Shown: in pieces, positions 17,014 through 46,315 of the stretch
Layout of the letters: each line of letters begins with the position of its first letter
How positions within the stretch are numbered: the first letter of the stretch is position 1
Assembly: GCA_903873415.1 (NCBI GenBank)
Contig: CAIQOK010000021.1
Location: forward strand, 62,001 to 126,000
DNA from: an uncultured Verrucomicrobiota bacterium
GTDB taxonomy: Bacteria; Verrucomicrobiota; Verrucomicrobiia; Limisphaerales; CAIQOK01
DNA length: 64,000 bases
Direction of reading: 5' to 3'
The notes under the pieces: model-generated
The model's input: the letters and a program-made list of their open reading frames with translations, nothing else
What the model was told of the DNA's origin: nothing
The model's database searches: none
Program-made: the position numbers and the translations under genes

Positions 17014-18282
17014 TCACTGCGGCGAGGTCACCAGCACGATGCCTTGGCCCGGGCGCAAATCGTAATCAAAGGGCGTGGGCAAATACTCCAGCGGATATTC
17101 CGGGGACACATCACGCAAGGGGCCCGGCTTTTGAACGTATTGATACAGATTCTCCGTGTGAAAATGCTGCTTCTGGTGCGCATCCTTGTTCAGGATGATC
17201 ACCGCTTCCTGTCTGGCCCGCACCGAACCTTTCCACAGCAGGAGAATCTGCGGATTATGAGCAGGCAGGATTTCCGTGGCTGTATCGGCCAGAAACACCG
17301 GATTCCGCGCCTTCGTCCTGTTCAGGCTCCGCACGAAGCCGCCCAGATCAATGTCCGTCCTCTCCCAATCCGTCGGGCGTGTCTTGACAACATGAAGGCG
17401 CTTGCGAAAGCCAAACTCAAAACCCATCGGAATCATCACACCCGATGAAAAGAGAGCGCTGAAAAGATAATTGCGCTTCAAGGCGTCGATGTTGCCGTGC
17501 AGCTCCTCCGCCAACCGCGGAGTGTCGTGGCTTTCGGGAAAGCTCACCGACTTGGCTTGTTCCCGTGTGAGGTTGTATTGCTCGAGCAGCCAGGGGCTGG
17601 AGAAGTCCCACCATTTTGAGCTGTTGAAAATATATTCAAACCCCGCCTGCGCCGTCTGCGCCGTCTCGTGCGGCGAACAGCCCAGCGTCTCGGCCACGAA
17701 AACCACCTCCGGATGCCGGCCGCGCGTCTCCTGGATGAGCCTGCGCCAGAATTTCTCCGGCACCTGATATGCCGCGTCGCAGCGAAAGCCTTCAAAACCC
17801 AGATCAATCAGATACTCCACCACACTGGCCAGATATTGAAACAACCCCTCCGGATCCTTGGTTTTTTTGTGGTCGAACTGGGCCAGATCCTTCCATTCCA
17901 CCACCTTCTGCCCCTCCAGACAGGAAGGATGCACGATTTTGCCATGCTCCCGCCGGAACCATTGCGGATGTTCCTTGATCAAATCCGAGTCGAACGCGCA
18001 ATGGCTCACCACCAAGTCCACCATGAGCTTCAACCCCAGCGCCTTGGCCTGTGCGGTCATCGCCTTAAACCCCGCTTCCGCCTCCGCCGCGCCCGAGTCT
18101 CCCACCATCAGCGGGTTCAGTCGGAAATAGTCCTTGATGGAATACAGGCTGCCCGAGTAGCCGGGATACTGGACGGGGTTGATGAAAATCCAGTCGAAGC
18201 CCAGATCGGCTGCGCGGACGAGGTGGGGTTGCCAGTCCCGAACATGCCCGGCCAGAAGGGGGAAGAGGTTGTAGATGATCAT
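17014..18282 (-). CDS. Glycoside hydrolase family 13 (alpha-amylase superfamily) enzyme
   Basis: A 422-residue cytoplasmic (beta/alpha)8-barrel enzyme. The ATG at 18282 overlaps the TGA of the upstream gene by four bases (ATGA) and has AAAAGGA six bases ahead, so start and coupling are clear. The catalytic triad is visible: nucleophile Asp169 in GFRCDAAY, acid/base Glu198 in VFVAETLG, and transition-state Asp253 in SFPESHDTPR. The N-terminal barrel begins at residue 1 (NPVQYPGYSGSLYSIKDY) and lacks a signal peptide. The DIDLGGFVRSLN region and overall plan resemble maltosyltransferase/trehalose-type GH13 subfamilies more than secreted amylases. Substrate is most likely glycogen or maltodextrin, because the operon starts with a glucan water dikinase homologue. 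Confidence 0.88.
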   Translation of the reverse strand: MIIYNLFPLLAGHVRDWQPHLVRAADLGFDWIFINPVQYPGYSGSLYSIKDYFRLNPLMVGDSGAAEAEAGFKAMTAQAKALGLKLMVDLVVSHCAFDSDLIKEHPQWFRREHGKIVHPSCLEGQKVVEWKDLAQFDHKKTKDPEGLFQYLASVVEYLIDLGFEGFRCDAAYQVPEKFWRRLIQETRGRHPEVVFVAETLGCSPHETAQTAQAGFEYIFNSSKWWDFSSPWLLEQYNLTREQAKSVSFPESHDTPRLAEELHGNIDALKRNYLFSALFSSGVMIPMGFEFGFRKRLHVVKTRPTDWERTDIDLGGFVRSLNRTKARNPVFLADTATEILPAHNPQILLLWKGSVRARQEAVIILNKDAHQKQHFHTENLYQYVQKPGPLRDVSPEYPLEYLPTPFDYDLRPGQGIVLVTSPQ

Positions 18283-19088
18283 GAGAGGTCCTTTTCGAGC
18301 AAGGCCAGCAAACCATTGCGTGCATTGACCAGCAGTGAATCCGGCTGTGGCCATTGTTCGAGAATGGCACAGCCCTTGAAGTTCCGCTTGCGGAGCCTGT
18401 CCAGCAGGCCGGCCAGGCCGGCGGTGTCATCCCTGGAAGGGCCTGTGAACAGAGTCAGGTGGCGGTCGGCGTCGCCGAAGTTTTCGTGCAGGTGGAGATG
18501 AATGACCGGCGTGTCCGGGGCCAGAGCATCGAAGTATTTCCAGAAATTGTTGCGCGTGGCTCCATACAGGTTGGCGTGGCCGAGATCGAAGCACATTCCA
18601 ACATGGGCGGACGTGGCATTTGTGCCGGCGCGCAGCGATGCGAAGAATGCGTTGAAATCATCCGGCCCGGTCCACACGGTGTTTTCCACTGCCAGCTTGA
18701 GGCCGGCACCGGCAGTCAGTCGCAGTGTCGGTTCCAAGGCCTCCACAAAACGGTTCACGCCCCGGCCCGCTTCCAAATGCAGGTTGAGCAGTGTGGCGCC
18801 AATGTCGGTTGCAAATTCCACCGTGCTGTGAAGACGGGCGGAGTGGGGTTGCAGGAGTGGATTGAACTCCAGCGGCGCGTGCACCGTGAGTTCCAGATGT
18901 CGGGCTGACGCGGTGCGGCGGATCTCCTCCCGGGTCGCGCTGCTCAGGTCGTTTTCATGCCATCCACCGCGGCCGGAGAAACCGCGATCGGGAAAGAACT
19001 CGAAGGCATCGAATCCCCGGGCCACGGCAAACTCGAACGGTTCCAGAACCGAGCTGGAAGCAAAGGAGGTCTGGTTGCCGATGCGCAT
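18279..19088 (-). CDS. TIM-barrel sugar isomerase/epimerase-like protein (AP endonuclease 2 family)
   Basis: 269 residues from the ATG at 19088 (ATG codons at 19091 and 19088 are adjacent). The frame stays open upstream to 19436, but that part overlaps the dikinase gene and is not protein-like. Fold signatures: FEFAVARGFDAFEFFPD at the N-terminus, TVHAPLEF, NLHLEAG, LAVENT, DLGHANLYG, HLHLHENFGDADRH and a final LEQW. These supply the Glu, Asp and His metal ligands expected of xylose isomerase-like TIM barrels. The exact substrate is unknown. It lies between the dikinase (91-base gap) and the GH13 gene (4-base overlap), which suggests a role in alpha-glucan or hexose handling. Confidence 0.8.
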   Translation of the reverse strand: MRIGNQTSFASSSVLEPFEFAVARGFDAFEFFPDRGFSGRGGWHENDLSSATREEIRRTASARHLELTVHAPLEFNPLLQPHSARLHSTVEFATDIGATLLNLHLEAGRGVNRFVEALEPTLRLTAGAGLKLAVENTVWTGPDDFNAFFASLRAGTNATSAHVGMCFDLGHANLYGATRNNFWKYFDALAPDTPVIHLHLHENFGDADRHLTLFTGPSRDDTAGLAGLLDRLRKRNFKGCAILEQWPQPDSLLVNARNGLLALLEKDLS

Positions 19089-19179
19089 CATGGCCTTTGG
19101 GGCGCACTGTCGAGCGGATCTCGCCGGGCGCGTTTTGTTTTCCGGGGTGGGATGTTTTTTTGCAACGAATTTGTTGGAT

Positions 19180-22100
19180 TCACAGGCCCACCTGCGGCCT
19201 GGTTTGGACGATATAAAATTTGCCCTTGGACCAGGCCCCTTCAATGTCCTGAGGCGCGCCAAAGGCCTCTTCCACTGTGGTTCCAATGCGTGTGAGCATT
19301 GCGGCAAACTCCAACCTGAATCGCTCGTCCCAGACCAGTTTGTCACCGGTGTAGTCCAGACACTCTTCGGCGGGCGGTTCCAGCAAGACACTGTCGTAGA
19401 GCCCCGCCCCGGCATAGCCTGCCAGATCCTCGGCATTGGAATCGGAGCGGAAGATAAGGCCGCGGCCGAAAAGGCCGCTGCTTTTGGCTGGATAGGCCAG
19501 GATGGTTGCGGCGCCGCTTTCCTTGGAGCCGGTCAGACTCAGGGCGCGGCCCGGATAATTGCCCACCACCGTTTCGCCAAGGCCCCTGACGACCTCGGCA
19601 TAGACTTCTCCGCGGTCTCCCGTGAAGGGGTTGACCGTGTGAAGCACAAAGGCGTATTCGGCTTCGACCACTTCCTGGATGAGCACCGCCATTTGCACGG
19701 CCGTATGGGGCCAGCCGCGGGTTTCCCGGCTGAAATAGGCTCGGTCGTTCCACAGCGAGGCCCAGACCTGTTTGACGCGGGTTTCGGCAAGATCCTTGTT
19801 TTGCGGTTCGGGGAGTCCAGCCTCCCGCAGGGAGCGGTAGAGCTCCTTCTGCAGCGCATTTGGCAGCTGCAACTCAAGCAGGCATTGCCGGATGGAGGCG
19901 AGCGTGGCTTGGGGATCGGAGCCGATTTTTGCGATCAGCCCGGCATAGCGTGCGGCGAGAGAGCGGTTGGCCGGGGTCTCCAAAACGGCATCGAAAACAC
20001 CGAAGGGCAGGACTACGGAGCGCGGGGTCTGCAGCCAGTCGGGAAGTTTGTCGGCGAGTTCCTTCAGGTGCCAGGACTTGCCGCCGACCAGTTGCCGGGA
20101 AAAACCGGACAGCGGGAGCGCTTGCAGAACCGGTCTCGCACGGGCGGACTTGGGGGCAAGTGCAGTGTCTTTTGTCCGGCTTGAGGAATCGGATTTTGCT
20201 GTCGTCTTGGAAAAGAGCACGTCTCCGCCGGGGGCGACTCTCAACTCCACCGTTTGGCCTTTGAGTGCTTGAAGGCTTTCAAAACATGCCCGGTCGTAGC
20301 AGGTGGCAAAAAGGATGCGGACGTTGCGCGCCCGGACCGCCACATGCGACACCAGATCCACCGAACTGGGGGTGATGACGGCGTGGACATTTTCCGGAGG
20401 TTCTTCGTCCCCGAAAACCTTTTCAGCGACGATTACGGTGGGGCTCTCGAAAATCCGCCCTTGGACGTCGCGGAAGGAGGCGACGACCTCGACCCTGCCG
20501 ACGGCCTGGCTTGGGCTGATGACCTGCCAGTTGCCGAGCTTGGCCTGCTGCCGTAAAATCGGATCCAGGTGATGCAGAAGCATGGAGAGGACAAAGACCG
20601 GCTGGCCGCGTACGATTTCCTCTGCGAACAGCCGAACCACCCAGTCATCCGCCTGGAAGGCGTGGCCCAAGGCCTCGCCCCGGGGCTGGAGCAGTTGGTG
20701 GAGCGAATCAATCTGCGTCTCCACCGCCCTCCGCAGGCGATCCAGTGCGGCCTTTGCATGCAGGGACCAGTCGGCGTGGGATCGGTTGTCTGTCGGAAGT
20801 CGCTGAACTTCGCGCTGGCATTGCAGGAGTTCCCCTCCCGACGGCAGCAGCAAAAGGTTCTCAACCCCGCGCTGAATCAGTTTTAGGAGGGAGTCGCGGT
20901 CGAAGCCGGAGTTCAAGCTGCGTTCGATCACCGTGCGCAGCGTCTGCTCTAGGGCGAGGTCGAGGTAGATGAGTTCTTTTGCGCAGGGAATTGCCGGGCG
21001 CGCTTCCAAACGGTTCTGGAGAGTCTGGCGCAGCCCGGTGATGCGGGCGGACAGCTCCAGCGGAGACGGGCCCGGCGCATGGAACAGATGTCGGACATGG
21101 CTCAGAGCGGCATTTGTTTCTGCATCCAGCCAAGGGTGTGCGGCGTTGGCTGCCGTTTCAAGGTCAGTCCCCGAGTGGACGGATTTGAGGAGCTTGAGGT
21201 AGTTGTGAAAATCGTGCAGGAGGCCGTCACGGAGATGGGGGTGCCATTCCGGCACTTTGGTGATGGGTCGCTCAAAGCCTGCAAGCCGTTCGGGGGCGAC
21301 TCCGCCCGCCGCCAGTGCCGCTTTGTATCGGTTGAGATCTCCGCCGCTCTGCAGGAAGGCGAGGTAGGCTTCGCAGATGACCACGTCGTCCGGGGTGTTG
21401 TTGTTGTGCAATTTCTGATGCCATTGTTCCATCCACGTTCCGCCCACCTCCTTGATATGATGGCGGTGCATGATGTGGAGGATTTCGTCCCGGATACGCT
21501 GCCCGTCTCCTCCGCGCCCCAGGCAGCCGAACATGAGCGCGATGAGGTCGCGGTTGGAGGGTTGGCTGAGGTAGGCTGTGGTCAGGCTGGCGGTGAGCCG
21601 GTCTTGGGCGTGGGAAAGTTCGCGCGGCTTCGTGTTGTAATTCCGCTGCCAATCCAGTTGCCGGATGGCCGAGAAACGCAGCCAGACAAACAGCGTCGCC
21701 CAATTCTCCCGGTCACTCCCCGCCTCGGCGATCAACTCCTGACAAAGGTTGAAGCGGTGCATCAGGCTCCAGCCATGCGCTCCCGTTTCCGCGGCTACAA
21801 TCCTGCCTCCCAGAGCGGACAGTTCCTGACTGCCGGTTGGCGGGGGCAGGATGGGAATTGTTAGATTCTGTCCTCCCTGTTTCAGCCATTGTCCGGATTG
21901 GATCTGGTGTAGGACAAAACCTAGGCCTTTGGGGGCGAGTGGTTCGGGGATATGAAAAGAAAGTCTGCGCAGGCCATTTGATTCCCGGAACGGTGTTTCG
22001 ACGGAAGTTTCGCCAAAGACTGTGGTCCCTTGCGGCCAAACGGATTCTGGGGGAAAGCGCCAGACGGTGCGCGACTGTTCCGTCAACCCCCAGTGCAGAG

Positions 22101-22644
22101 CCAGCGGTCCTGCGGCATCCGTGATCAGCAGGACTTGGAATCCGTCGCTCTGTGGCATGACGGCGGCGGCCAGTTCCGCTCCGGAATCGAGCCTGAAACG
22201 ATTCTGAAAAAGAACCTTTGTCCCGGCGACTTCATTCTCGAGCGTCGCGGCGGGGGAATTGGAACAGGGTGCGGGGCCAGACAGTGCCATGTAGAAGTCT
22301 TTGCCAAGGTTGTTTTCCCAGCGGTTGGTATCGGGAAAAAAAAGGTCGAAAACAAGAAATGGCGCCTGGACCGGTTCATTGAAGTGCAGAACCAAATCGC
22401 GTTCGACCGGGTTGGCGGGGAAGGGGGTTTGCACTGCTTGGGCATTGAAGGCCTTGGTGCCCGGAGGCCAGAGAGAGGCGGGGGGAGCCTGCCACTGTGA
22501 CGGATGCTGATGCGACAGACCCCAGTGCAGCCAAGGGTTGCCTGTGCCCTTGAACCGGAGCACTACCGTCCAGCCGTCCGGAGTGGCCCGTCTCTCTGCG
22601 CCCAGTGAGAGGTGTGGGCCGCTTTTGATCAGCTCATCGAACAC
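19180..22644 (-). CDS. Alpha-glucan water dikinase-like protein
   Basis: A 1154-residue cytoplasmic protein with the full architecture of plant GWD. Two N-terminal CBM45-like starch-binding modules at about residues 15-115 and 155-255 each have LHWGL, a W...PP..W motif and a closing TPF. A helical region carries WHQKLHNNNTPDDVVI near residue 405, nearly identical to the hallmark GWD motif. A phosphohistidine domain has catalytic His767 in VDLVSHVAVRARN and then FATCYDRA. A C-terminal PEP-synthase-type ATP-binding domain (about 850-1154) includes KSWHLKEL and SDSNAEDLAGYAGAGLYDS. GWD phosphorylates glucosyl residues of starch with the beta-phosphate of ATP. Plant enzymes have about 1400 residues, the difference being mainly in spacers. 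It is first in the operon with the TIM-barrel and GH13 genes. Glycogen is the inferred substrate. Confidence 0.9.
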   Translation of the reverse strand: MFDELIKSGPHLSLGAERRATPDGWTVVLRFKGTGNPWLHWGLSHQHPSQWQAPPASLWPPGTKAFNAQAVQTPFPANPVERDLVLHFNEPVQAPFLVFDLFFPDTNRWENNLGKDFYMALSGPAPCSNSPAATLENEVAGTKVLFQNRFRLDSGAELAAAVMPQSDGFQVLLITDAAGPLALHWGLTEQSRTVWRFPPESVWPQGTTVFGETSVETPFRESNGLRRLSFHIPEPLAPKGLGFVLHQIQSGQWLKQGGQNLTIPILPPPTGSQELSALGGRIVAAETGAHGWSLMHRFNLCQELIAEAGSDRENWATLFVWLRFSAIRQLDWQRNYNTKPRELSHAQDRLTASLTTAYLSQPSNRDLIALMFGCLGRGGDGQRIRDEILHIMHRHHIKEVGGTWMEQWHQKLHNNNTPDDVVICEAYLAFLQSGGDLNRYKAALAAGGVAPERLAGFERPITKVPEWHPHLRDGLLHDFHNYLKLLKSVHSGTDLETAANAAHPWLDAETNAALSHVRHLFHAPGPSPLELSARITGLRQTLQNRLEARPAIPCAKELIYLDLALEQTLRTVIERSLNSGFDRDSLLKLIQRGVENLLLLPSGGELLQCQREVQRLPTDNRSHADWSLHAKAALDRLRRAVETQIDSLHQLLQPRGEALGHAFQADDWVVRLFAEEIVRGQPVFVLSMLLHHLDPILRQQAKLGNWQVISPSQAVGRVEVVASFRDVQGRIFESPTVIVAEKVFGDEEPPENVHAVITPSSVDLVSHVAVRARNVRILFATCYDRACFESLQALKGQTVELRVAPGGDVLFSKTTAKSDSSSRTKDTALAPKSARARPVLQALPLSGFSRQLVGGKSWHLKELADKLPDWLQTPRSVVLPFGVFDAVLETPANRSLAARYAGLIAKIGSDPQATLASIRQCLLELQLPNALQKELYRSLREAGLPEPQNKDLAETRVKQVWASLWNDRAYFSRETRGWPHTAVQMAVLIQEVVEAEYAFVLHTVNPFTGDRGEVYAEVVRGLGETVVGNYPGRALSLTGSKESGAATILAYPAKSSGLFGRGLIFRSDSNAEDLAGYAGAGLYDSVLLEPPAEECLDYTGDKLVWDERFRLEFAAMLTRIGTTVEEAFGAPQDIEGAWSKGKFYIVQTRPQVGL

Positions 22645-26262: not shown

Positions 26263-26716
26263 AAGCGTCTGCGGGTGTTGTTTGCGTTGTCCGTGGTTTT
26301 TGAGCGCACCCGTAAATCAGACCGCATCCGCGCCGCCAATCGGCCGATTCAGCCCAGCCGGCCGGGCGCGCCCGCCGCATCTGGAATGAGTTTTATTTTT
26401 CAGTGCCGTTTCAGGAAGGGGCCCGCCGCCATGATTATAGCCCGTTCCGCCGCCTTCGGGAGTGATTCAACGGCCCGCCTTCCGCGCTTAACTAAGCCAC
26501 GCTGCGCCGCCCTGTCAAATTGGAAGATCCTCCAGCCGGGCACCGGCGCGGTTCGTCCCCGCCCTCGTTCAGCGGCCCATTTGGGGCCTGATTGGGGTTG
26601 ACACGGGCAATGGGTGTTCTTACTCATGGATCCGGTAGGAGGTGGTTTTCGTCCGCGCGTTTTCCGGCCGGAGATCTCATTTGGATCACCTTGTTCAAAC
26701 CATGGAGGATAACAGC
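26263..26716. other. Divergent intergenic region with possible promoter
   Basis: 454 bases between the lipoprotein gene and the giant membrane protein gene. No protein-like reading frame. A consensus -35 hexamer TTGACA is at 26598-26603 on the plus strand, but the -10 at the right spacing (tactca, 26621-26626) is poor. Confidence 0.5.
26704..26708 (+). promoter_or_regulatory. Strong ribosome binding site deciding the start of the 26717 gene
   Basis: GGAGG at 26704-26708 sits eight bases before the ATG at 26717. It is the strongest Shine-Dalgarno sequence noticed in the window, where most genes have weak ones, and selects 26717 over the upstream in-frame starts at 26642 and 26702. Confidence 0.75.
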
Positions 26717-29700
26717 ATGAGCGGAAACAAAACGTTGTCCGGTTCGCCCTTCAGCCTCACCACACTGGTCGCCATTCTGACCTGCGCCGGAGGCTTGATC
26801 ATTGCTTCCCGCAAGATCAGCAGCGATAGGCCCGCCGTTGCCACGATGGGTTCCACGGTGTCCATTGGAGATCAAACCGAGTCGGGCCGGCTCTGGGCGG
26901 ATCCGTTCGACTTGGGGCCGGTGCCGGTAGCGCGAAGCGGCAACGGCGCCTTTTCCTGGTTGAGGCAGCAGGCTCAATGGGAGGCGATCTCGAACCGCAG
27001 GCCCGCTTTGCTGACGGTATTCCTGCGGGCCGGCCCTTTTGGGGAGAATCGCGAAGCCCGTATCCGGACCCGCTTTGCGGTCGTCTCCGCTCTCGGTGAG
27101 GCGGGCTATGTGCCGGAAGATCAGGATCGGATTGGAGCAATCGATTTTGCCTGGCCGACGAGTTCCGAGTTGCGCCGGGGCTGGTTGACGAATGACAGCA
27201 GCGACCTGTGGATTTCAAATGTGTCGAGCAATCCAGTGTTGCGTCAAAGGGCTGCGTTCGAGTGGTATCGCGACCGGGTTTTTCGACCGGGGCGTTCCAG
27301 CCAGACGCCACGCGCTCCCCGTGTGCTGGTCCTCTGGGTGGAGGAGGATCAGTTTGCCGATGTGCCTGCCGCAAGGTTCGCCCTGCTCCTTCAGGAACTG
27401 GCCGGGGCGGGTGAATCTGGGAAGCCGGCCTCCATCCGCGACCATTTCGGGTGTGTGCTTTTTCTGGGACCCCGTTCGTCGAGCACGCTGCGGGCATTGC
27501 TGCCGGACTACGGGCAGTCTGGTTTTTCCCCTTCGGCGCTCGCCCCGGGGTTGCGGCGAAAAATCGCTGCGCTGCTCCATCAAGTGGAGGTCTATAGCCC
27601 GACGGCCAGCGCCATGGACGCGGCGTTGGTGTCCGATAACCCTGCTTCCGGCGCTCTGCCACGGCAGCCTGTCGAAGCGCTGCTCACCAACCTCTGGTTC
27701 CATTCATTCCACAATTTCTGCGCCACGGACTCCCGGTTGGCTGCAGAGGCACTGGATGAATTGAAATTGCGCGGTGTGGACCTCTCCCGCACCAATGTCA
27801 ATCTGGTTGTTGTCTCCGAGTGGGATACCTTCTACGGCCGGATGCTCTCCTTGACCTATGCCGCCGAGCTGGCCTGCCTGCAGGGTATCGCAACCAGCGA
27901 CCATGATTTCGTTGTCCGCTATCAGGCAGGCCAAGCCGTCTGGCCTGCTAATCTTTTCTCCTTCGTGCACCTGAACGGTTTGGATGGGCAGACCACCGGA
28001 CAGAATCCGGGATCTGTTCCTGGCGCGGCGGCACCGGCGACTCTTGAGGCGCTCAAACATGGAAATTCTGATGAGAATTTGGCTCAGGGCCCGGCGCAGC
28101 TCGATTATCTCACCCGCTTGGGCCGGCAGCTCCTTGAGCTGCAGTCGCGCCTTGAGCGTCAGGGCAGGGGACGCATTGCCGCCATTGGCATCGTGGGTAG
28201 CGACGTCTACGATACGCTTGTCATTCTCCAGGCGCTGCGGGGCCGGTTTCCAAACGCCGTTTTTTTCACCACGGATCTCGATGCGCGCTATCTCCATCCA
28301 AAGGAGCTGGAATGGAGCCGCAATTTGCTCGTGGTCAGCGGTTATGGGCTGCGCTTGAGGGACGGGTTGCAGGGCGGGGTGGCGCCGTTCCGCGACAGCA
28401 TGCAGACGGCGCAGTTTGCCGCCACGCTGGCGGCCCTGGGCAGTCCCGTAATGCCTGGAGTCTTCACCGTTTCACCTCGCCGGACCGAAGTGGGCCGCGG
28501 CAAGGCTTTTGACCTCAGCACAACGGCGTCCGATCCGCATCCGCCTCCGCCCGCGTTGGACCGCTCCCTGCCGTGGCCCAAGTATCTGGTGCTGGGTGCT
28601 CTCTTGGTGGCGGTATCCCTGACTTTGATGTTGGTTATTTATCTGCCCGGTCTGCAGAGGCTGACAAGGAAGGCGGCACAGTTTGAACTCCGGAGTTTGT
28701 GGTTCCGCTCGGAGGATGTGGGCGGGCGGGCGGGGTTGAGCGCTTTGCTCCTTCAGTTGCGCGCCAGTCCCGATCCCCGGGCCTTGGAGTTGATTGCTTC
28801 TTATTCCAATTCCCGCACCCCCGTCTTGCAGGTTTGGGAAACGGCCGACCTTGATGAAACGCGATCTTTTCTCGATTTCCTTAATGAATTTGTTTTCGAG
28901 GAGCCGGCAAACGTATCGGCGACGGATTCGTCAGGAACGGTTGGCGGACGGCTTTTCGGGTGGCGCTTCCGGCGCCGGCAGATGCTGGACGAGCTTTTCA
29001 CCGAAGTGCTGCGCTCGTCCTCAGACGCGGATCTGCAGGCGCTGGGAGCCTCCGCCCACAGTGCCCGCCAGGCGGCAGAGCAGGGCTATTGGCTGCGTCA
29101 CAGCCGGCGGCGGCGGATATCCCTGTTGCTGCTGGCCGCTTTGTTCCTGTTGATCGCTTTGGTTGCCTGCATTGTTCACGACCAGTTGGGCGGCGGTCGG
29201 GGCGAACCTTTCTCCCTGCTCGGCGGGGTAAGCGTGTGGCCCACACAATTCATCCGGCTGCTCGCTGTGACCCTCTCGGGCATTTTTCTGGTGAACTCCC
29301 ATGCGGCGCTGAATGGCTGGGTCCTCGATGCGACCCGGCGGTTTCGCCTGCCCATGGAAGAGGATGGGCCGCAGGTCCAGCGGCCGCGCCGGGGTGTGAA
29401 AGATCTGCTCCATGCTTGTGCTGGATTGGTCAACGGTGTGAAGCGGCTTGCGCGGATCTTTTTCCAATCATCCGACCGTTGGCAGTTGCCTGCGCTCCGG
29501 CCTCATGCGGCGATACACGCGGGGCAACTGTGGAAGGAATACCAGCAACTGGGCTGCCTGCGGCGCCGACTGCTCCGCACGATTCCACCCTTTTGCGTCT
29601 ATGTGTTTTTTTGCATTGGGGTGGCGCGTTTGGCAGGGGGCGCGGCTTATCGTCCGGTGCGTGGCGGCCTTTCCGACGCATGGGATATTACTCTGCTTGC

Positions 29701-30328
29701 CCTCTCGGTGGCGGCCTATTTGTTCCTGGCCTTTTGGACCATTGATGCGGTGCGCCTGTGCCGATGGCTGGTGGAGCACTTGAGCCAAGCTCCAACCCGC
29801 TATCCCAAGTCCTGTCTGCAATTCTTCGCCCGGCAATGCGGGCTGGAGAATCCGCATGCCGGGGATTTGCCCATGCTCGCCGAGTGGATAGATATGCAGT
29901 TGATTGCCGGGTTGACCGAGCGGGTGGGAAGGCTGGTTTACTATCCTTTTCTCATCTTCTTCCTGCTGCTCCTGTCGCGCAATAACTGGTGGGATCGTTG
30001 GGTTTGGCCGCCGGGGCTGTTGATCATCTTCAGTTCCAACCTCCTGTTGTCATTGGCCGGCATGCTCATTCTGCAGCGGGCCGCCCTTCAGGCCAGGGAA
30101 CGGGGCTTGATCAAGCTGCGCGCCACTGTGGCCGCCGCCGAGCAGAGGGCCGAGGCTCCCCAATCGGCCCGGTATCAGGCCAATGTGGGGCGCCGGTTGA
30201 TCCAAGAGGTGGAGACCCTTGAGCAAGGGGCGTTTGCCCCGTTCTGGCAGAACCCCGTGGTCGGGGCGCTGCTCATTCCTTCCGGCGGCTCCGTGCTCGT
30301 CGAACTCTTGGATTACCTCTTTCACTGA
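26717..30328 (+). CDS. Giant polytopic membrane protein with large extracytoplasmic domain, unknown
   Basis: 1203 residues. Topology by eye: one helix at about 13-35, a soluble region of some 590 residues, then helices near 625-648, 800-820, 845-865, 958-975, 988-1010, 1073-1088 and 1098-1118. The soluble region has alternating strand and helix and phrases such as RIAAIGIVGSDVYDTLVILQ, FFTTDLDARYLHP and FRDSMQTAQF, which suggest a periplasmic-binding-protein or Rossmann-like fold; this is an impression only. The segment between helices 2 and 3 is cytoplasmic or periplasmic with YSNSRTPVLQVW. I recall similar phrases in uncharacterised bacterial proteins but cannot name a family. The gene stands alone with a strong ribosome binding site. 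A sensory or transport-related role is possible; no catalytic motif was found. Confidence 0.75.
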   Translation: MSGNKTLSGSPFSLTTLVAILTCAGGLIIASRKISSDRPAVATMGSTVSIGDQTESGRLWADPFDLGPVPVARSGNGAFSWLRQQAQWEAISNRRPALLTVFLRAGPFGENREARIRTRFAVVSALGEAGYVPEDQDRIGAIDFAWPTSSELRRGWLTNDSSDLWISNVSSNPVLRQRAAFEWYRDRVFRPGRSSQTPRAPRVLVLWVEEDQFADVPAARFALLLQELAGAGESGKPASIRDHFGCVLFLGPRSSSTLRALLPDYGQSGFSPSALAPGLRRKIAALLHQVEVYSPTASAMDAALVSDNPASGALPRQPVEALLTNLWFHSFHNFCATDSRLAAEALDELKLRGVDLSRTNVNLVVVSEWDTFYGRMLSLTYAAELACLQGIATSDHDFVVRYQAGQAVWPANLFSFVHLNGLDGQTTGQNPGSVPGAAAPATLEALKHGNSDENLAQGPAQLDYLTRLGRQLLELQSRLERQGRGRIAAIGIVGSDVYDTLVILQALRGRFPNAVFFTTDLDARYLHPKELEWSRNLLVVSGYGLRLRDGLQGGVAPFRDSMQTAQFAATLAALGSPVMPGVFTVSPRRTEVGRGKAFDLSTTASDPHPPPPALDRSLPWPKYLVLGALLVAVSLTLMLVIYLPGLQRLTRKAAQFELRSLWFRSEDVGGRAGLSALLLQLRASPDPRALELIASYSNSRTPVLQVWETADLDETRSFLDFLNEFVFEEPANVSATDSSGTVGGRLFGWRFRRRQMLDELFTEVLRSSSDADLQALGASAHSARQAAEQGYWLRHSRRRRISLLLLAALFLLIALVACIVHDQLGGGRGEPFSLLGGVSVWPTQFIRLLAVTLSGIFLVNSHAALNGWVLDATRRFRLPMEEDGPQVQRPRRGVKDLLHACAGLVNGVKRLARIFFQSSDRWQLPALRPHAAIHAGQLWKEYQQLGCLRRRLLRTIPPFCVYVFFCIGVARLAGGAAYRPVRGGLSDAWDITLLALSVAAYLFLAFWTIDAVRLCRWLVEHLSQAPTRYPKSCLQFFARQCGLENPHAGDLPMLAEWIDMQLIAGLTERVGRLVYYPFLIFFLLLLSRNNWWDRWVWPPGLLIIFSSNLLLSLAGMLILQRAALQARERGLIKLRATVAAAEQRAEAPQSARYQANVGRRLIQEVETLEQGAFAPFWQNPVVGALLIPSGGSVLVELLDYLFH

Positions 30329-34046: not shown

Positions 34047-37000
34047 ATGAAAAACAACAACTCGTCAGATTGGCAAAGTGCCCCGCCAGAGGCGGGCTTT
34101 TCTCCGTGGCAGCTCTTGAAGAGTAAGCGCATCTCCTACCTCACACTCCCGTTGCTCATCATGGCAACCATCACGGAGTTTGTCATCCTGGCAACAGGCT
34201 GGAAATATCAGCAGATAGCCTGTCTGCCCAAGGGCATGGGCGTGACCTTCTTCGGCATCGGCCCCATCGGAGCCACCATCCTCGCCGTCGAGCTGCTCAA
34301 GCTGCCTCTGGCCATCTGGACAGCCTCGCGCACCGGCTGGCAAAAAGGCATCATGATCATGGCCGGCTTGCCCCTCATTTGCATTCTCACCTTCCAACTG
34401 GTCAAGGACATGGCGGTCTACGAAATGGGCATCGCCATGGCGCCGGCCGGCCAGATGCTCGATCAGGCGACCCAGGAGGAAAACAAAATCGTCCAGCTCA
34501 ACGGCGAACTGGCCCTTATCAAGGACAAGAAAGAGGAGCGCGAACAGAAACTCGCCGCGCTGGCGTCCAAGAAAGCAAAGTTCAAGGCCGACCTTGAGGA
34601 ATCCCTCAAGCGCAACGGGGACTTGCGCGAGGACGCCATATCCCTGACCGATTACCAGAAAAAGGAGCTCTCCGGAGTGGAGGCGCGCCAGTCCACAATC
34701 ATCAAACAGTTCGATGCCGACACCGAGCAGCTGACCAAAGCGGTGACGGACTTGCGCGGCCGGCGTGAGGCCGAGATGGCGCACGCCACCAAATGGAACG
34801 CCGAGGAGGCCCGGATTGAAAACGATTATCAGACCAAAGCTGCCGAGTATGCCAATAAAAAAGCGGCTTATGAAAAAGACAAGGCCGTTTTCGAAAACGC
34901 CAACTATCTCAAACGCCACTTGATGAAGGAACCTGTCGATCCAGGCGTGCCGCCCGGCCGCGAGTCCAACACCATCCTCAAACCCACCCTTATCGCCGAG
35001 CTGGACGCCCAGATCCAGGCCAAAGAAGCCGAGTTGCTTGCTGTCAACAACCGCCGCCGCGACCGCGTTGCCCAGGTGGAGTCCGAGGCCCATCAGCTCC
35101 GGCAGGAATTCGACCGCCGCTCCAGCACCAAACGCGAGGAAAGCGACCGCAAGCGCGAACAGTTGCTCGCCGCCCAAGCTACTCTGGCCGCTGAGTGGGC
35201 CGCCGAAGAGAAGTTGATTGATCAAGGTTATGAGGCCGCCGTGCAAAAGGTGGACCTCATTCGCGCGGAACTGGACGCTTCCCAGAAAAAAGCCCAGGCC
35301 TTCTACGAGGCCCGCGAGACCGCCATCAAAAACACCCAGGTCCACCGCATCGCCACCACCGTCGAAATCGTCCGCAGCCTCCTCTTGGGCCAGCGCCCCG
35401 TCTCCATCAGAACCACCGCCAAGGAACGCGGCGACCTCTACACCGACCAAATCAGCATGGTCCGCGTCTGGGTCTACCCGGTCCTGGCTTTCATTGTCGC
35501 GTTCCTCCCCACCCTGATGGTCGAGGTGGGCTTCTCCACCCTCTTCAAATCAGAGCATCCGCGCCCGCCGTACCGGCTAGGATTGTTCGGCCACAGCCTC
35601 CACCGCCTCTACACCCGCGCAGGACGCCAGAAAATTCTGCGCGCCGACCGCTTGGCCCGCGAGGCAACCGGAGAAATCGCGCGCCGCGACGAGGCTCTCG
35701 TGAGCGCACAGGCCGAAGCCCAAAAAACCATCCTCGACAAGGACGCCCAGTTGCAGGCCGCGCGCCAGGCTCTGGCAGACTCCGCCGCCGCGCATGAGGA
35801 CCAATTGAAAAAGAAGTCCGACGAGTGGGTCGCCAAACTCGCCCTCATGGCCGACTCCCTCAACCGCGCCATCATCGAGAAGGACGCTTTGCGCGACCTC
35901 CAGAAATCCGAGATCGACCGCCAGATCCAGATGCGCCAAAACGCATGGTCGGACCGCCTCACCCAACTACGCCAGGAACTCGACGAGCAGCGCGCCGCCG
36001 CCGAAACGGAACGCACCGCCCTCATCCAGGAGCATCACCGCAAGTTGATGGAGGTGTCCGAGGAAGCCAAAACCCAGGTGGTTCAGGCCCGACGCCAATT
36101 GACCGAGGCCGAACTGGCCGGCCTGGAGAAAAACGCCGCTCTGGTCCATGACCTCAAGGAAGCCCTGCATGCCCGCGACAGCGCGGAGACCGAGTTGAAA
36201 CACTTGGCCGATTCCCAAACCCTCAAGCTGGCGCAACTCCAGGACGAAGCCGCCCGGGAACTTGAGAAGGCCGCCCGTCAGGAGCGGCACCGCGCCGAGC
36301 GCCAGCAGCTCGAGTTCGAGCAGACCCTCCACCAGAGGGAAGAGGATTCCCAGCGCCGCCTCAAACAGCGCGAGCAGGATTTGACTCTCGGTTTTGAAGC
36401 ACGTCTGGTCGCCGAACAAACCAGAATCGAGGATGCCGCTCGACGCCGCGAGGCCGAGCTGGCCCGCCAGTTCGAGGCCCGCGCCGTTGAAGCCGATGCC
36501 CGCTGGAAACAGGAGGCCCAGCAGCGCGAGGCCGCCGCCGAGACCCGTCTCAAACACCGCGAGCAGCAACTGCAGGCCCAGACCGAGGTCCGCTTGGGTG
36601 AAATCAAAACCCAGGCCGACCTGGATTTGCGCCAGCGCGAATCCGACTTTGTCCGCCAGCTCGAAGCCCAGACTCGCGAGGCCGACGCCCGCCTCAGGCA
36701 CGAACTGCAGCAGAAGGAACTCGCCCTCCAGGCCAAGCTCAAACAGCGCGAACAGGAGCTGGCCGCCCGCGCCGCCGCCCGCGAAACCGAATGGCAGAAC
36801 CAGTCCGCCGCCGACTTGCTCGCACGTCAGGAGGAATGGGAACTTCAAACCGCCCTGCGCGTCCGCGCCGTCGAAACCCGCCTCGCACAAGAGTTCATGC
36901 AGAAGGAAGAAGTCGACTTATCCAAATTCAAACAGCGCGAACAGGAACTGGTCCTCGCCTTCGATGCCCGCCTGGTTGCCGAACAAAGCAGAATCCAGGA

Positions 37001-38543
37001 AGACGCCCGACGCCGCGAGCTCGAGCTGGCACGCCAGTCCGAGGCCCGCGACTTGGAGGCCGACGCCCGCTGGCAGCAAGAGCTTCAGCAGCGCGAAGAA
37101 GCCGCCGAAATCAGGCTCAAACAACGAGAACAGCAGTTGATGGCCCAGACCGACGTGCGCCTGGCCGAAATCCAGACCCAGTCCGCCCAGGAACTGCGCC
37201 GCCGCGAGTCCGACCTTCAGCACCAGTTCGAGACCCAGTCGCGCGAGGCCGATGCCCGCTTCAGGCACGAACTCCAGCAGAAGGAACTCGCCCTTCAGAC
37301 CAAGCTCAAGCAGCGCGAGCAGGAGCTGGCCGCCCGCGCCGCCGCACGCGAAACCGAACTCCATCAGCAGGCCGCCGCCGACTTGCTCGCACGCCAGGAG
37401 GAGTGGCAGCGCCAGTCCGCTTCCCGCCTCGCCCAGGACATCCAGGCCCAGGAAGAATCCCTCTTATCCAAATTAAAACAGCGCGAGCAGGAATTGGCTC
37501 TCGCCTTTGAATCCCGCCTCACGGCCGAACAAGCCAGAATCGAGGACGCCGCCCGCCGCCGCGAATCCGAGCTGGGCCGCCAGATCGAGACCCGCTGGAA
37601 ACAGGAACTCCAGCAGCGCGAAGAGGCCGCCGAAACCCGCCTCAAACAGCGCGAACAGCAGCTCCAGGCGCAGACCGAATTGCGTCTGGCCGAAATCCAA
37701 ACCGTGGCCGCTGAGGATTTGCGCAAGCGCGAATCCGAATTCGACCGCCTCCTCGAGGTCCAATCCCGCGAGGCCGACGCCCGTTTCCGTCAGGAATTGC
37801 AGCAGAAAGAACTCGCCCTCCAGACTAGGCTCAAGCAGCGCGAGCAGGACCTGGCCTCCCGTGCCGCCACCCGCGAAACCGAACTGCAAAACCAAGCCGC
37901 CGCCGACTTGCTCGCACGCCAAGACGAATGGGAGCGCCAGACCGACTCCCGCATCCGCGCCACCGAAGCACGCCTGGCCCAAGAGGCCCAGCAGCAGGAA
38001 GAACTCTTCCAATCCAAATCCCGACAGATCGAACAGCATTGGCAGGCCAAGCTCGACAGCGCCCGCATCGAGGCCCAGTCCCAGACCGAACAGGCTCTGC
38101 GCCGGCGCGAACTCGAGTCCGCCGACGCCCTGCCCCGTGCCCTCCGCGAGCAGGAAGCCCGGCTCCGGCAGGAACTCAACCAGCAAATGGAGTCGATCCA
38201 GACCCGGTCCAGGCAGCGCGAGCAGGATCTGGCGGGCCAGTTGGCAGCACAATCCGCCGCCCATCAGTCCGCCCTCCAGAATTCCGAGATTGAGCTGGCC
38301 GGGTTGCGTCGCAGCATTGAGCCTTTCAAGGCCCTGCTGGCCCACACCGAGAAGGAACGCGACGAGGCCAGGTTGTCCGCCTCCGAAGGCATCCGTCAAA
38401 TGCAGGATCTGGAGAAAAAGCTCACTGAAGCATCCTCTCTGCTCAACGGCTGGAAAACCGACAAACATGTCGCCCCGTCCCGGAGTGGCAAAGAAGCATT
38501 CCAGTTTGTGCGCGGTGGATTAGGTGCAACCAGCGAATCCTGA
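34047..38543 (+). CDS. Giant membrane-anchored coiled-coil protein with tandem repeats, unknown
   Basis: 1498 residues. The N-terminus carries three hydrophobic helices at about 28-50, 64-92 and 98-118, then a long charged coiled coil (about 138-445), a fourth helix at about 474-498 (VYPVLAFIVAFLPTLMVEVG) and a second very long coiled coil to the end. Residues 772-1324 are three tandem repeats of 189, 182 and 182 residues, each starting with a KQREQ(E/D)L...F(E/D)(A/S)RL..EQ segment and containing LLARQ(E/D)EW. Composition is dominated by Gln, Glu, Ala, Arg and Leu. No enzymatic motif was seen. The architecture suggests a membrane-attached filament or spacer, perhaps in cell shape, division or envelope organisation. 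There is no obvious Shine-Dalgarno, and the neighbours give no hint. Confidence 0.85.
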   Translation: MKNNNSSDWQSAPPEAGFSPWQLLKSKRISYLTLPLLIMATITEFVILATGWKYQQIACLPKGMGVTFFGIGPIGATILAVELLKLPLAIWTASRTGWQKGIMIMAGLPLICILTFQLVKDMAVYEMGIAMAPAGQMLDQATQEENKIVQLNGELALIKDKKEEREQKLAALASKKAKFKADLEESLKRNGDLREDAISLTDYQKKELSGVEARQSTIIKQFDADTEQLTKAVTDLRGRREAEMAHATKWNAEEARIENDYQTKAAEYANKKAAYEKDKAVFENANYLKRHLMKEPVDPGVPPGRESNTILKPTLIAELDAQIQAKEAELLAVNNRRRDRVAQVESEAHQLRQEFDRRSSTKREESDRKREQLLAAQATLAAEWAAEEKLIDQGYEAAVQKVDLIRAELDASQKKAQAFYEARETAIKNTQVHRIATTVEIVRSLLLGQRPVSIRTTAKERGDLYTDQISMVRVWVYPVLAFIVAFLPTLMVEVGFSTLFKSEHPRPPYRLGLFGHSLHRLYTRAGRQKILRADRLAREATGEIARRDEALVSAQAEAQKTILDKDAQLQAARQALADSAAAHEDQLKKKSDEWVAKLALMADSLNRAIIEKDALRDLQKSEIDRQIQMRQNAWSDRLTQLRQELDEQRAAAETERTALIQEHHRKLMEVSEEAKTQVVQARRQLTEAELAGLEKNAALVHDLKEALHARDSAETELKHLADSQTLKLAQLQDEAARELEKAARQERHRAERQQLEFEQTLHQREEDSQRRLKQREQDLTLGFEARLVAEQTRIEDAARRREAELARQFEARAVEADARWKQEAQQREAAAETRLKHREQQLQAQTEVRLGEIKTQADLDLRQRESDFVRQLEAQTREADARLRHELQQKELALQAKLKQREQELAARAAARETEWQNQSAADLLARQEEWELQTALRVRAVETRLAQEFMQKEEVDLSKFKQREQELVLAFDARLVAEQSRIQEDARRRELELARQSEARDLEADARWQQELQQREEAAEIRLKQREQQLMAQTDVRLAEIQTQSAQELRRRESDLQHQFETQSREADARFRHELQQKELALQTKLKQREQELAARAAARETELHQQAAADLLARQEEWQRQSASRLAQDIQAQEESLLSKLKQREQELALAFESRLTAEQARIEDAARRRESELGRQIETRWKQELQQREEAAETRLKQREQQLQAQTELRLAEIQTVAAEDLRKRESEFDRLLEVQSREADARFRQELQQKELALQTRLKQREQDLASRAATRETELQNQAAADLLARQDEWERQTDSRIRATEARLAQEAQQQEELFQSKSRQIEQHWQAKLDSARIEAQSQTEQALRRRELESADALPRALREQEARLRQELNQQMESIQTRSRQREQDLAGQLAAQSAAHQSALQNSEIELAGLRRSIEPFKALLAHTEKERDEARLSASEGIRQMQDLEKKLTEASSLLNGWKTDKHVAPSRSGKEAFQFVRGGLGATSES
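36360..38018 (+). repeat. Three in-frame tandem repeats of about 560 bp
   Basis: Units at 36360-36926 (567 bp), 36927-37472 (546 bp) and 37473-38018 (546 bp). Each begins with an (L/F)KQREQ motif and ends just before the next. Units 2 and 3 carry different internal deletions (unit 3 lacks about 11 residues after its ARRRE segment, unit 2 about 7 near its end). Copies differ at many positions, so the expansion is not recent. Confidence 0.9.
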
Positions 38544-42058: not shown

Positions 42059-45000
42059 CTAGGATTTGGGAGGGAGGATGACGGTGACACGGCCGACGCG
42101 GCGGACAAGTCCGGGCTGCTTGCCTTTTTTCTTGTTGGAATCATCTTCCGCAACATCATTTTTGGCCACCTGCTTTGAATCGTTGGAGGCCTGCTGTGCA
42201 GCGGACTGACTGCTGGCGGTGGCGGTGGCCGTAGTCCCGAGAGTTGACTGAGAGGCACCACCGTTGACGGAAACGTTCTGCCCCATCACATCAGCAGAGA
42301 CCCCCTGACCAGCCGAGGCGGACACACCGCTGATACCGATGATGGTGCCGGAGACCGATCCGCCGGCGGAGAGATTTGCCGAGCCGCCGGAGAGGACCGA
42401 TCCGCTGAAACTCTGAGCCGCATCGATGGTGGAGTTCTGACGGGAAACGATAAGGCCTTGAATGTTGCCTTGGGCGGAGATGTTGATTGTGCCGCCGACA
42501 ACGCCACCGGAACCGAGGAGCACATTTCCCGCATGGCTAGTGGTGCCGTCGGGGTTTTTGGAGCCTGCTATCAGGGTAACGGTGGGGCCACCGGCGACGC
42601 TGCCGTTCAAGGCATATTGGGAGATGCCTCCCAAAGTGGAAACAATATCCCCCTGCGGGGTGGTGACTGTAATGTTTCCAGGCAGAGAGTTAAGCGCGCC
42701 GCCTTGGTATTGGCCGGCAGGAGAGAGGGCCAAGATTCCGCTGCCGAAGGGGCGGGGGCTCTGGATGGTTCCCGACACAAGACCTCCCGAAACGAGATCG
42801 GAATAAACCACAGGAATGATCAATGCCGAGTTGGCGCCATTGCCCGCATTGACATTGCCATTGAGTGATGTGACAAACACATTTCCGCCGTTGAACGAGC
42901 CAATCCTCGCGCTGCCCACGTTAACGTCCTGCCCGGCAGACACATATACATCGCTGTGGCCTGAGGTGTAAATGCCATAGGCGATGTTGCCCCCGGTTGG
43001 GGGGATGAAAGCGAAATTGCCCAGACTCAAATCCATTTGGCCCGCCGCACTGACATCCACATCCCCGCCATAGACCGAAGCGATCGTGGAGGTGATCATA
43101 CTGAGAGCCGATGCGGACCGGACCGTGACTGAAGCTCCCACCTGAGTGATGCCGTTGAGCGCAGTATAGTCCCGTGCGGCGCCGCTTCCGCTGCCAACAC
43201 CCCAGGAAATGATTCCGCGGCTGCTCCCCAGATTGATTGCGGCAGCATCGATGCGCAACTGCCCGGGGCCGCCTATCTGGAATCCTGCGGGCACTTCCAA
43301 GTCGCGGTTCCAGGAAGCCAGACTGCTCTGATATAATGCCTCGATGGAAGAAGGCGAAACGAAGGCCAGCGTGCCGAGTGCAAAATAGTATCTGGAAGGA
43401 TCCTGCCCCAGGGCCAACTGCCCCCGCGCCAACACCGGTCTACCGGCGGCATCCAGCCTGACTGTTTGCAGCGGACCTTCCATGAGACTTCTCACATACT
43501 GGCTCATCTGGAAGTGATATCCCAAGCGCAAGGTGGCTGGATCATAGACAAATCCCGGATTGGCGCTGTCTGCGGTGCTCCCGGGAAGGGCGCGTAACTG
43601 GTTGAATGCCGTCTGGAGCTCCTTTGTGGTGGCGTTGGGGGAAACGGTGAAGGCCGATGCCAGCAGCGGATCCACCAGCAAACTGAAGATCGAGTTCCAA
43701 AGGCCGGGATACAGAGGATCGGCGCTGATAATCGCCTTGTCCAAGGTTGTGAAAGTGTAGACCGGAGAATAACTGATGGATCCGCCCACCTTGACCGAAG
43801 TCACGTCGGACTTCTGCAGGTTTTGCCCCACAAGGCTCGAATTGAACATGTTCCCGGCTACAACCATTTGGGCCTCCTTCGGGCTGTAGAGCGTGACATT
43901 ATTCATGTTTCCACCGACACTTACTTTCACCGGAGATGCAGGGTCGACGAACGACGGAGGGCTGGAGCCGTGGTCTGTCGGAAGAAACGTCCCGGTAAGA
44001 CCATTAACCGGGCTTGGATTCCATTGGGCACTTTCGCTCTCAGAGAGGCATAGCGAAAAGACGCCGCCGGGAGCACTTTGAAAATTTCCTTTGGTGGTGA
44101 CATTCAGATTCCCCTGTGAGGAGGGGAACAGAACGACGTTTTGATCCAGAACGAAGTCCCGCCCGGCATCCACTTTGAGACTGGGGGGAAGGAGAATAGG
44201 CAGAGCCCCCCCGCCCGCTGAGGGAGGGGCGAGGGGCGCTCCGATCCCGGTAATCTCAATATTCCCACCCGCCCTCAAGGATAGGGTGGATGCCGCATCA
44301 TAGTTGAAGCGGTGATAACCGGCATAACTCATTCCATCCTTGTCATTGAAGAGTCCGTTCGGATTGAAGGCGTGCTGCAAATAGATATCCCCCTCGGGGG
44401 CGTTTATATTCCACGTTCCCTTGATGAGGCCTAGGGAAAAACCTCCGCTGGACGCCGAGCCTATCGTTCCACCTGAAGTGATGGTGCCTATTCCGTTTGC
44501 AAGAACATAGTTGCCCAGCACGTTGCCTCCGGCGGTGACGGTGACATTTCCAGGCTGGGAACCGAACGCGCCTGATCCGGCGCCGTACTGGGCCTCGTTA
44601 TAATTATTCTGGAGCGGGAGATAACTGGTTACATTTCCTCCGGCAGTGATGGTGACATCTCCACCCGCAGCGGTGCTGATGCCTCCCAGCCGCGTGGAAT
44701 TCACAATGTAATACGGTGCGGCAAGGCGGCCAAAAGTATATCCGTAGAAATTAACTCCGCTGTTCACATCACCCAGAAGGGCCGTAACGTCGATGCTTCC
44801 GCCCGTGCGGGTTCGGACGGCACCGGAGTTGATGAAAACCTCGTTTGCAGCCCACAAACTGACCCGGCCATTCAGCGCATCAACATAGGAGTTGCCGTCC
44901 AGATAGATCCCTCCAGTCCGCATTGTGTCAGGTCTCGCGAGCAGATTTTCCGGCCCGGCTTTCAAATAAACGCTCCAGTTGTTGCCGGCCTTGATGCCGG

Positions 45001-46312: not shown

Positions 46313-46315
46313 AAA

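Follow-up and report, generated by a model that had tools for sequence, protein, structure and literature searches.

The 64,000-nt stretch of an uncultured Verrucomicrobiota bacterium analyzed here (GenBank assembly GCA_903873415.1, contig CAIQOK010000021.1, positions 62,001 to 126,000; hereafter the window) encodes a homologue of plant alpha-glucan water dikinase (GWD), which in plants phosphorylates starch ahead of its breakdown; the GWD gene is followed in the direction of transcription by genes for TIM1, an endonuclease IV-like TIM-barrel protein, and for a GH13 protein of the alpha-amylase superfamily. Judging from sequence comparisons, these genes probably represent one half of a glucan phosphorylation cycle in bacteria, in which phosphate added by dikinases would be removed by TIM-barrel phosphatases. 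The kinase half of this cycle is well supported, and the phosphatase half we infer from the residues and relatives of the TIM-barrel proteins.

GWD of the window

The GWD gene (19180..22644, reverse strand) has a GTG start and encodes 1154 amino acids, arranged as Ig (immunoglobulin)/CBM45-like domains in the first ~265 residues, a middle domain (~269-701), a phosphohistidine domain (705-817) and a permuted ATP-grasp domain (~850-1154). The Pfam search identifies tandem domains of the starch-binding type at the N-terminus (PF23166, GWD1 Ig-like N-terminal domain, found twice, E=2.8e-39), the GWD1 phosphohistidine domain with its catalytic His (PF22973 at 705-817, E=1.1e-34) and PPDK_N (PF01326, E=4.3e-31), while residues 269-701 match the middle domain of the solved plant GWD fragment 9ha9 (E=8.9e-83). 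The WHQKLHNN motif begins at residue 408. The active site, with His767 as the phosphohistidine, has the sequence SH(767)VAVRARN. The initial annotation, made from the sequence without database searches, had reported two starch-binding-like modules, WHQKLHNN, His767 and the ATP domain, and the Pfam matches, the similarity to 9ha9 and the motif positions bear it out. The families of phosphoenolpyruvate (PEP) synthase and rifampicin phosphotransferase, considered as other possible identities, match a part of the ATP domain only and score far below their cut-offs.

These features are conserved in other bacteria. The GWD motifs are kept across 84 sequences, WHQKLHN being present in 83 of them. In the ATP domain of the window protein, permuted as compared with other dikinases, VWAS (960) precedes RSDSNAEDL (1066), as in all classifiable bacterial GWDs (74/74). 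The CFATC redox motif was not seen in bacterial GWDs readable at that site, which have xLFATC and its variants instead (LFATC in the window copy). CFATC is a redox motif of land plants, absent from the GWDs of red and green algae (PMC11986951); thus it does not define the family, and chloroplast-type redox control is not expected for the window GWD, which, like the algal ones, is devoid of this motif.

TIM1 and GH13 genes

TIM1 (18279..19091, reverse strand; 270 amino acids), a candidate phosphoglucan phosphatase, matches the Pfam family AP_endonuc_2 (1.1e-27) and is separated from the GWD stop codon by an 88-base spacer (19092..19179, reverse strand). The GH13 protein (17014..18282, reverse strand; 422 amino acids) was assigned by Pfam and by the motifs GFRCDAA, VFVAET and FPESHD, which occupy the usual GH13 catalytic positions. 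The TIM1 stop and the GH13 start share four bases, ATGA (18279..18282, reverse strand), confirming at 18282-18279 the overlap of the last two genes noted in the initial annotation, and translational coupling of the two genes is likely. According to the alignment with homologues, the listed open reading frame starts at 19436 (TIM1) and 18354 (GH13) are probably upstream of the true ones, 19091 and 18282.

Second dikinase and cluster organization

A second dikinase, of 892 residues, is encoded in the genome of the window on another contig, C170. It has the GWD1 phosphohistidine domain (PF22973, 91 bits, with the motif SHLGVRARQ), and PF01326 matches it in one stretch (580-888), which corresponds to the canonical order of the ATP domain, the reverse of that in GWD. 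It has LQNKLH where GWD has WHQKLH, and its similarity to plant GWD is weak. CBM20 was not found in four such proteins scanned with Pfam, and therefore the C170 dikinase is named PWD-like only. The gene of a second TIM-barrel protein, TIM2 (351 residues), begins 8 bases before the end of the PWD-like dikinase gene.

The cluster is split in this genome, with GWD-TIM1-GH13 in the window and PWD-TIM2 on C170, while elsewhere the genes are gathered as one cluster, GWD-TIM1-PWD-TIM2-GH13. The initial annotation correctly listed the three genes of the window, but overlooked the PWD-like paralogue, TIM2 and the nearly obligate pairing of GWD with TIM1.

Adjacency was counted in the 72 loci whose sequence extends 900 bases or more downstream of GWD. 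TIM1 directly adjoins GWD in 51 of them, and this adjacency holds across phyla, beyond the order to which the window belongs. The PWD-like gene is present in 29 of the 72 loci, and in 27 of these 29 it is fused to TIM1; TIM2 is found in 19 loci, always with PWD. Moreover, TIM2 is fused to GH13 in two loci (L073 and L086). Other recurrent neighbours of GWD are genes for GH57, GlgB, GH77, GH13 and glycosyltransferases, and 35 of the 64 loci that span 8 kb or more encode at least one further alpha-glucan enzyme.

Three other features of these loci were observed. An unusual fusion of TIM2 to glycoside hydrolase family 2 domains (L015:4850-9766, reverse strand; 1638 residues) adjoins TIM1-PWD and GWD. 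A DUF4912 protein recurs near the GWD cluster, often by GH57 genes (L073:18897-19730; also L028, L033, L054, L077). Finally, TIM1 is missing near GWD in some Nitrospirota, magnetotactic lineages among them (L064, L065, L091, L092, L099), and a small predicted gene (about 190-217 amino acids, cluster c12) recurs just upstream of GWD in these loci.

Distribution and co-occurrence

About 85,000 species genomes of bacteria and archaea were scanned, yielding 138 stretches with a GWD relative, of which 80 were fetched. By record title, the fetched stretches are spread over about ten phyla: Nitrospirota, Verrucomicrobiota, Planctomycetota, Thermodesulfobacteriota, Myxococcota and Pseudomonadota, with single members in Acidobacteriota, Nitrospinota, Deferribacterota and Fibrobacterota, although single assignments may be wrong, as most of the records are metagenome bins. 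No GWD relative was found when viral contigs, phages and plasmids were searched, and thus nothing points to carriage by phages or plasmids.

Of the 116 genomes from the order of the window, 9 contain the GWD1 phosphohistidine family above the cut-off; when genomes were sampled evenly across the phylum, one of 388 does, that of the window itself. Among the 116 relatives, TIM1 is present in all nine genomes with GWD and absent from the remaining 107 (counts uncorrected for relatedness). TIM2 occurs in all four of these relatives in which PWD was detected, as well as in one genome (G112) whose cluster is broken across contigs.

The GH13 gene behaves differently. Its homologues with 57-76% identity are found near GWD in other phyla, and GH13 was considered as an obligate partner of GWD and rejected, since homologues with at least 55% identity are present in four of the nine genomes with GWD and likewise in five of the 107 without it.

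Possible function of TIM1 and TIM2

The predicted structure of TIM1 (predicted local distance difference test, pLDDT, 91.6) has the fold common to sugar epimerases and endonuclease IV, and Foldseek alone could not separate a phosphatase from an epimerase. Residues E31, H71, H105, E136, D169, H172, H198, H200, D209, H211 and E245 are kept in 54 of 54 TIM1 sequences. The ligands in endonuclease IV from C. pneumoniae are H75, H115, E153, D187, H190, H229, D237, H239 and E269 (PMC13113976); their TIM1 counterparts, assigned partly by alignment and for the remainder by motif, in a correspondence at the level of sequence, are H71, H105, E136, D169, H172, H200 (or H198), D209, H211 and E245, all invariant (n=54). 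The D-x-x-H and D-x-H spacings also coincide with those of endonuclease IV. Hydrolases among the characterized members of the AP endonuclease 2 superfamily are, for instance, endonuclease IV and CbiR, which hydrolyses cobamides (PMC7733943). The dual-specificity phosphatase (DSP) family (PF00782) was not detected in the genome of the window by a search that detected the family in just half of the control genomes. Given the invariant ligand-type residues, the hydrolase relatives and the absence of a DSP family match in the genome, we prefer, with moderate confidence, to regard TIM1 as a candidate phosphoglucan phosphatase. TIM2, with a comparable set of His, Asp and Glu residues kept in 19 of 19 sequences, is a candidate for the same activity, also with moderate confidence.

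Several observations weigh against this assignment and the cycle built on it. Foldseek places epimerases above endonuclease IV among the TIM1 matches, and MJ1311, the best sequence match of TIM1, for which no assigned function was found, has the same residues. In TIM2, the Asp-His pair is spaced differently from that of endonuclease IV, and the model gives weak structural matches only. At 20 of the 72 loci, mostly from Nitrospirota, the fetched stretch contains GWD without TIM1, so that TIM1 either is not universal or is encoded elsewhere in those genomes. As regards the PWD label, the likeness of the second dikinase to plant PWD (GWD3) is tentative, plant GWD being the only plant dikinase in the comparison.

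Alternatively, the dikinases could phosphorylate glucan, while TIM1 and TIM2 are isomerases or epimerases of sugars or sugar phosphates, processing the released phosphorylated glucose or maltodextrin. The top Foldseek matches of TIM1 are indeed of the epimerase type (MJ1311, psicose epimerases, UlaE, YcjR), and its Pfam label is 'xylose isomerase-like'. However, epimerases of this fold need only about four metal ligands, and the full nine-residue endonuclease IV set is present in all 54 TIM1 proteins. Moreover, the characterized proteins that TIM1 resembles in its ligand set, endonuclease IV and CbiR, are hydrolases of phosphate esters, and fusion of TIM1 to a dikinase suits a phosphate-handling enzyme. 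We consider the epimerase role rather unlikely, and retain phosphatase as the preferred candidate activity.

Glucan context and proposed cycle

Glycogen synthase-family (495 codons) and phosphorylase-family genes are located close together on contig C19 of the same genome, which makes an internal glucan the likely substrate. A second glycogen synthase-family match was observed in a 388-codon open frame of this genome (G000:C157:14690-15250), similar in length to the glycosyltransferase of ~386 amino acids near GWD in other phyla.

In the GWD reaction the beta-phosphate of ATP is transferred to histidine and then to a glucosyl residue, and the gamma-phosphate to water (PMC7569903); plant GWD phosphorylates C6, and plant PWD phosphorylates C3 in glucan that already carries phosphate (PMC12892837). 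In the proposed cycle, the window GWD would likewise pass the beta-phosphate of ATP through its histidine to a glucosyl residue of glucan, and the PWD-like paralogue, whose gene is on C170 in this genome and joins the GWD cluster in others, would add further phosphate. By analogy with plants, the two enzymes may divide C6 and C3 between them. TIM1 and TIM2, as metal-dependent TIM-barrel enzymes, would most likely take the phosphate off again, the job of SEX4 and LSF2 in plants, and GH13, together with the nearby GH57, GlgB and glycosyltransferase enzymes, would cut or remodel the opened glucan.

Glucan is strongly indicated as the substrate of the dikinases, as far as homology can tell. The other possibility is that the enzyme only looks like GWD and that its acceptor is another molecule, for example trehalose, maltose or a polymer of the cell surface; 29 of the 64 loci, with no further recognized alpha-glucan enzyme nearby, are compatible with it. 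Nevertheless, two N-terminal domains of the GWD type and the GWD middle domain are kept (E=9e-83 to plant GWD), and GH57, GlgB, GH77 and GH13 recur beside GWD, so that a different acceptor seems very improbable. The suggestion of the initial annotation, a bacterial system phosphorylating and remodelling a glycogen-like glucan, is thus supported by the grouping of GWD (see below), the alpha-glucan neighbours across phyla and the glycogen synthase- and phosphorylase-family genes.

Phylogeny and origin of GWD

The phylogenetic analysis places the window GWD together with plant GWD and apart from both PEP synthase and the PWD-like paralogue (100% support in the Shimodaira-Hasegawa-like approximate likelihood ratio test, SH-aLRT); clustering with PEP synthase or other dikinases had been named beforehand as the outcome that would speak against a GWD. 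With the PWD-like clade as an outgroup, plant GWD is on the side of the bacterial GWDs (100%), hence GWD and the PWD-like proteins had split before plant and bacterial GWDs separated.

The bearing on the origin of GWD, anticipated in the initial annotation, depends on the tree. The plant sequence, a single GWD fragment on a long branch, is nested within the bacterial GWDs in the tree of 89 rows and is sister to all of them in the tree of 44 rows; its placement depends on sampling, and a bacterial branch within a eukaryotic group could not have emerged from either tree. Because of this discrepancy, no claim is made on the direction of transfer.

Bacterial GWD as such is already known from one tree legend, published in 2018, where lateral transfer was suggested for some bacteria (PMC6260743). 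Accordingly, bacterial GWD could have been gained laterally from algae or plants, the cluster being a secondary assembly, and the patchy presence of GWD (9 of 116 relatives, 1 of 388 genomes across the phylum) fits such a source. On the other hand, bacterial GWDs occur in about ten phyla (by record titles), both GWD and its PWD-like paralogue are ancient in bacteria, and the plant-type features looked for are missing (CFATC from readable bacterial GWDs, CBM20 from the four PWD-like proteins). Overall, an algal or plant source appears improbable.

According to a 2019 study, the duplication producing GWD and PWD preceded the last common ancestor of Archaeplastida, and the cyanobacterium sister to plastids has no GWD-type gene (PMC6805951). 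As a tentative and rather doubtful scenario, the reversible cycle (GWD, PWD and two dedicated TIM-barrel phosphatases, one per kinase) might have arisen in bacteria before plants, the first Archaeplastida taking the GWD/PWD pair and later swapping the phosphatases for SEX4 and LSF2 of the DSP type.

Other features of the window

Elsewhere in the window there are two very large open reading frames without a Pfam match (26642-30328 and 34047-38543, both on the forward strand; 1228 and 1498 amino acids) and a two-partner secretion (TPS) pair (42059-48856, reverse strand), comprising a TPS-domain exoprotein (1417 amino acids) and a ShlB-type transporter (846 amino acids). The Rfam search gave zero matches in the window.

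Comparison with known systems

In the open-access literature searched, no report was found of the cluster, the bacterial GWD/PWD pair, the strict GWD-TIM1 link in the order of the window or the candidate TIM-barrel phosphatases; in a 2025 paper the mechanism of glycogen phosphorylation was called unknown (PMC13011383). The two dikinase types occur next to each other in several bacterial phyla, which makes these bacteria candidate donors for plant starch phosphorylation, and their dikinases are testable enzymes, simpler than the plant ones. TIM1 and TIM2 are candidates for a new class of phosphoglucan phosphatase.

The window GWD resembles plant GWD1 (PDB 9ha9/9qvi) in the Ig-like N-terminal domains, the middle domain with WHQKLHNN and the phosphohistidine domain with its histidine. 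Unlike GWD1, it is a bacterial protein of 1154 amino acids, has xLFATC in place of CFATC and is clustered with TIM1, PWD-like and GH13 genes. As in the case of plant PWD/GWD3, the C170 protein is a second dikinase of the same superfamily, with the GWD-type phosphohistidine domain and the canonical ATP-domain order, paired with GWD. The bacterial PWD-like proteins differ in having no CBM20 match and, in many cases, in having an endonuclease IV-like TIM barrel fused at the N-terminus.

TIM1 and TIM2 would share with plant SEX4 and LSF2 and animal laforin the proposed role of removing glucan phosphate so that degradation can proceed. However, the latter are DSP-fold phosphatases, while TIM1 and TIM2 are TIM barrels from a genome with no DSP family match. 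In fold and metal-ligand residues TIM1 is like endonuclease IV and CbiR of the AP endonuclease 2 superfamily, but the substrates of these enzymes are DNA and cobamides, respectively, whereas TIM1 is co-inherited with a glucan dikinase.

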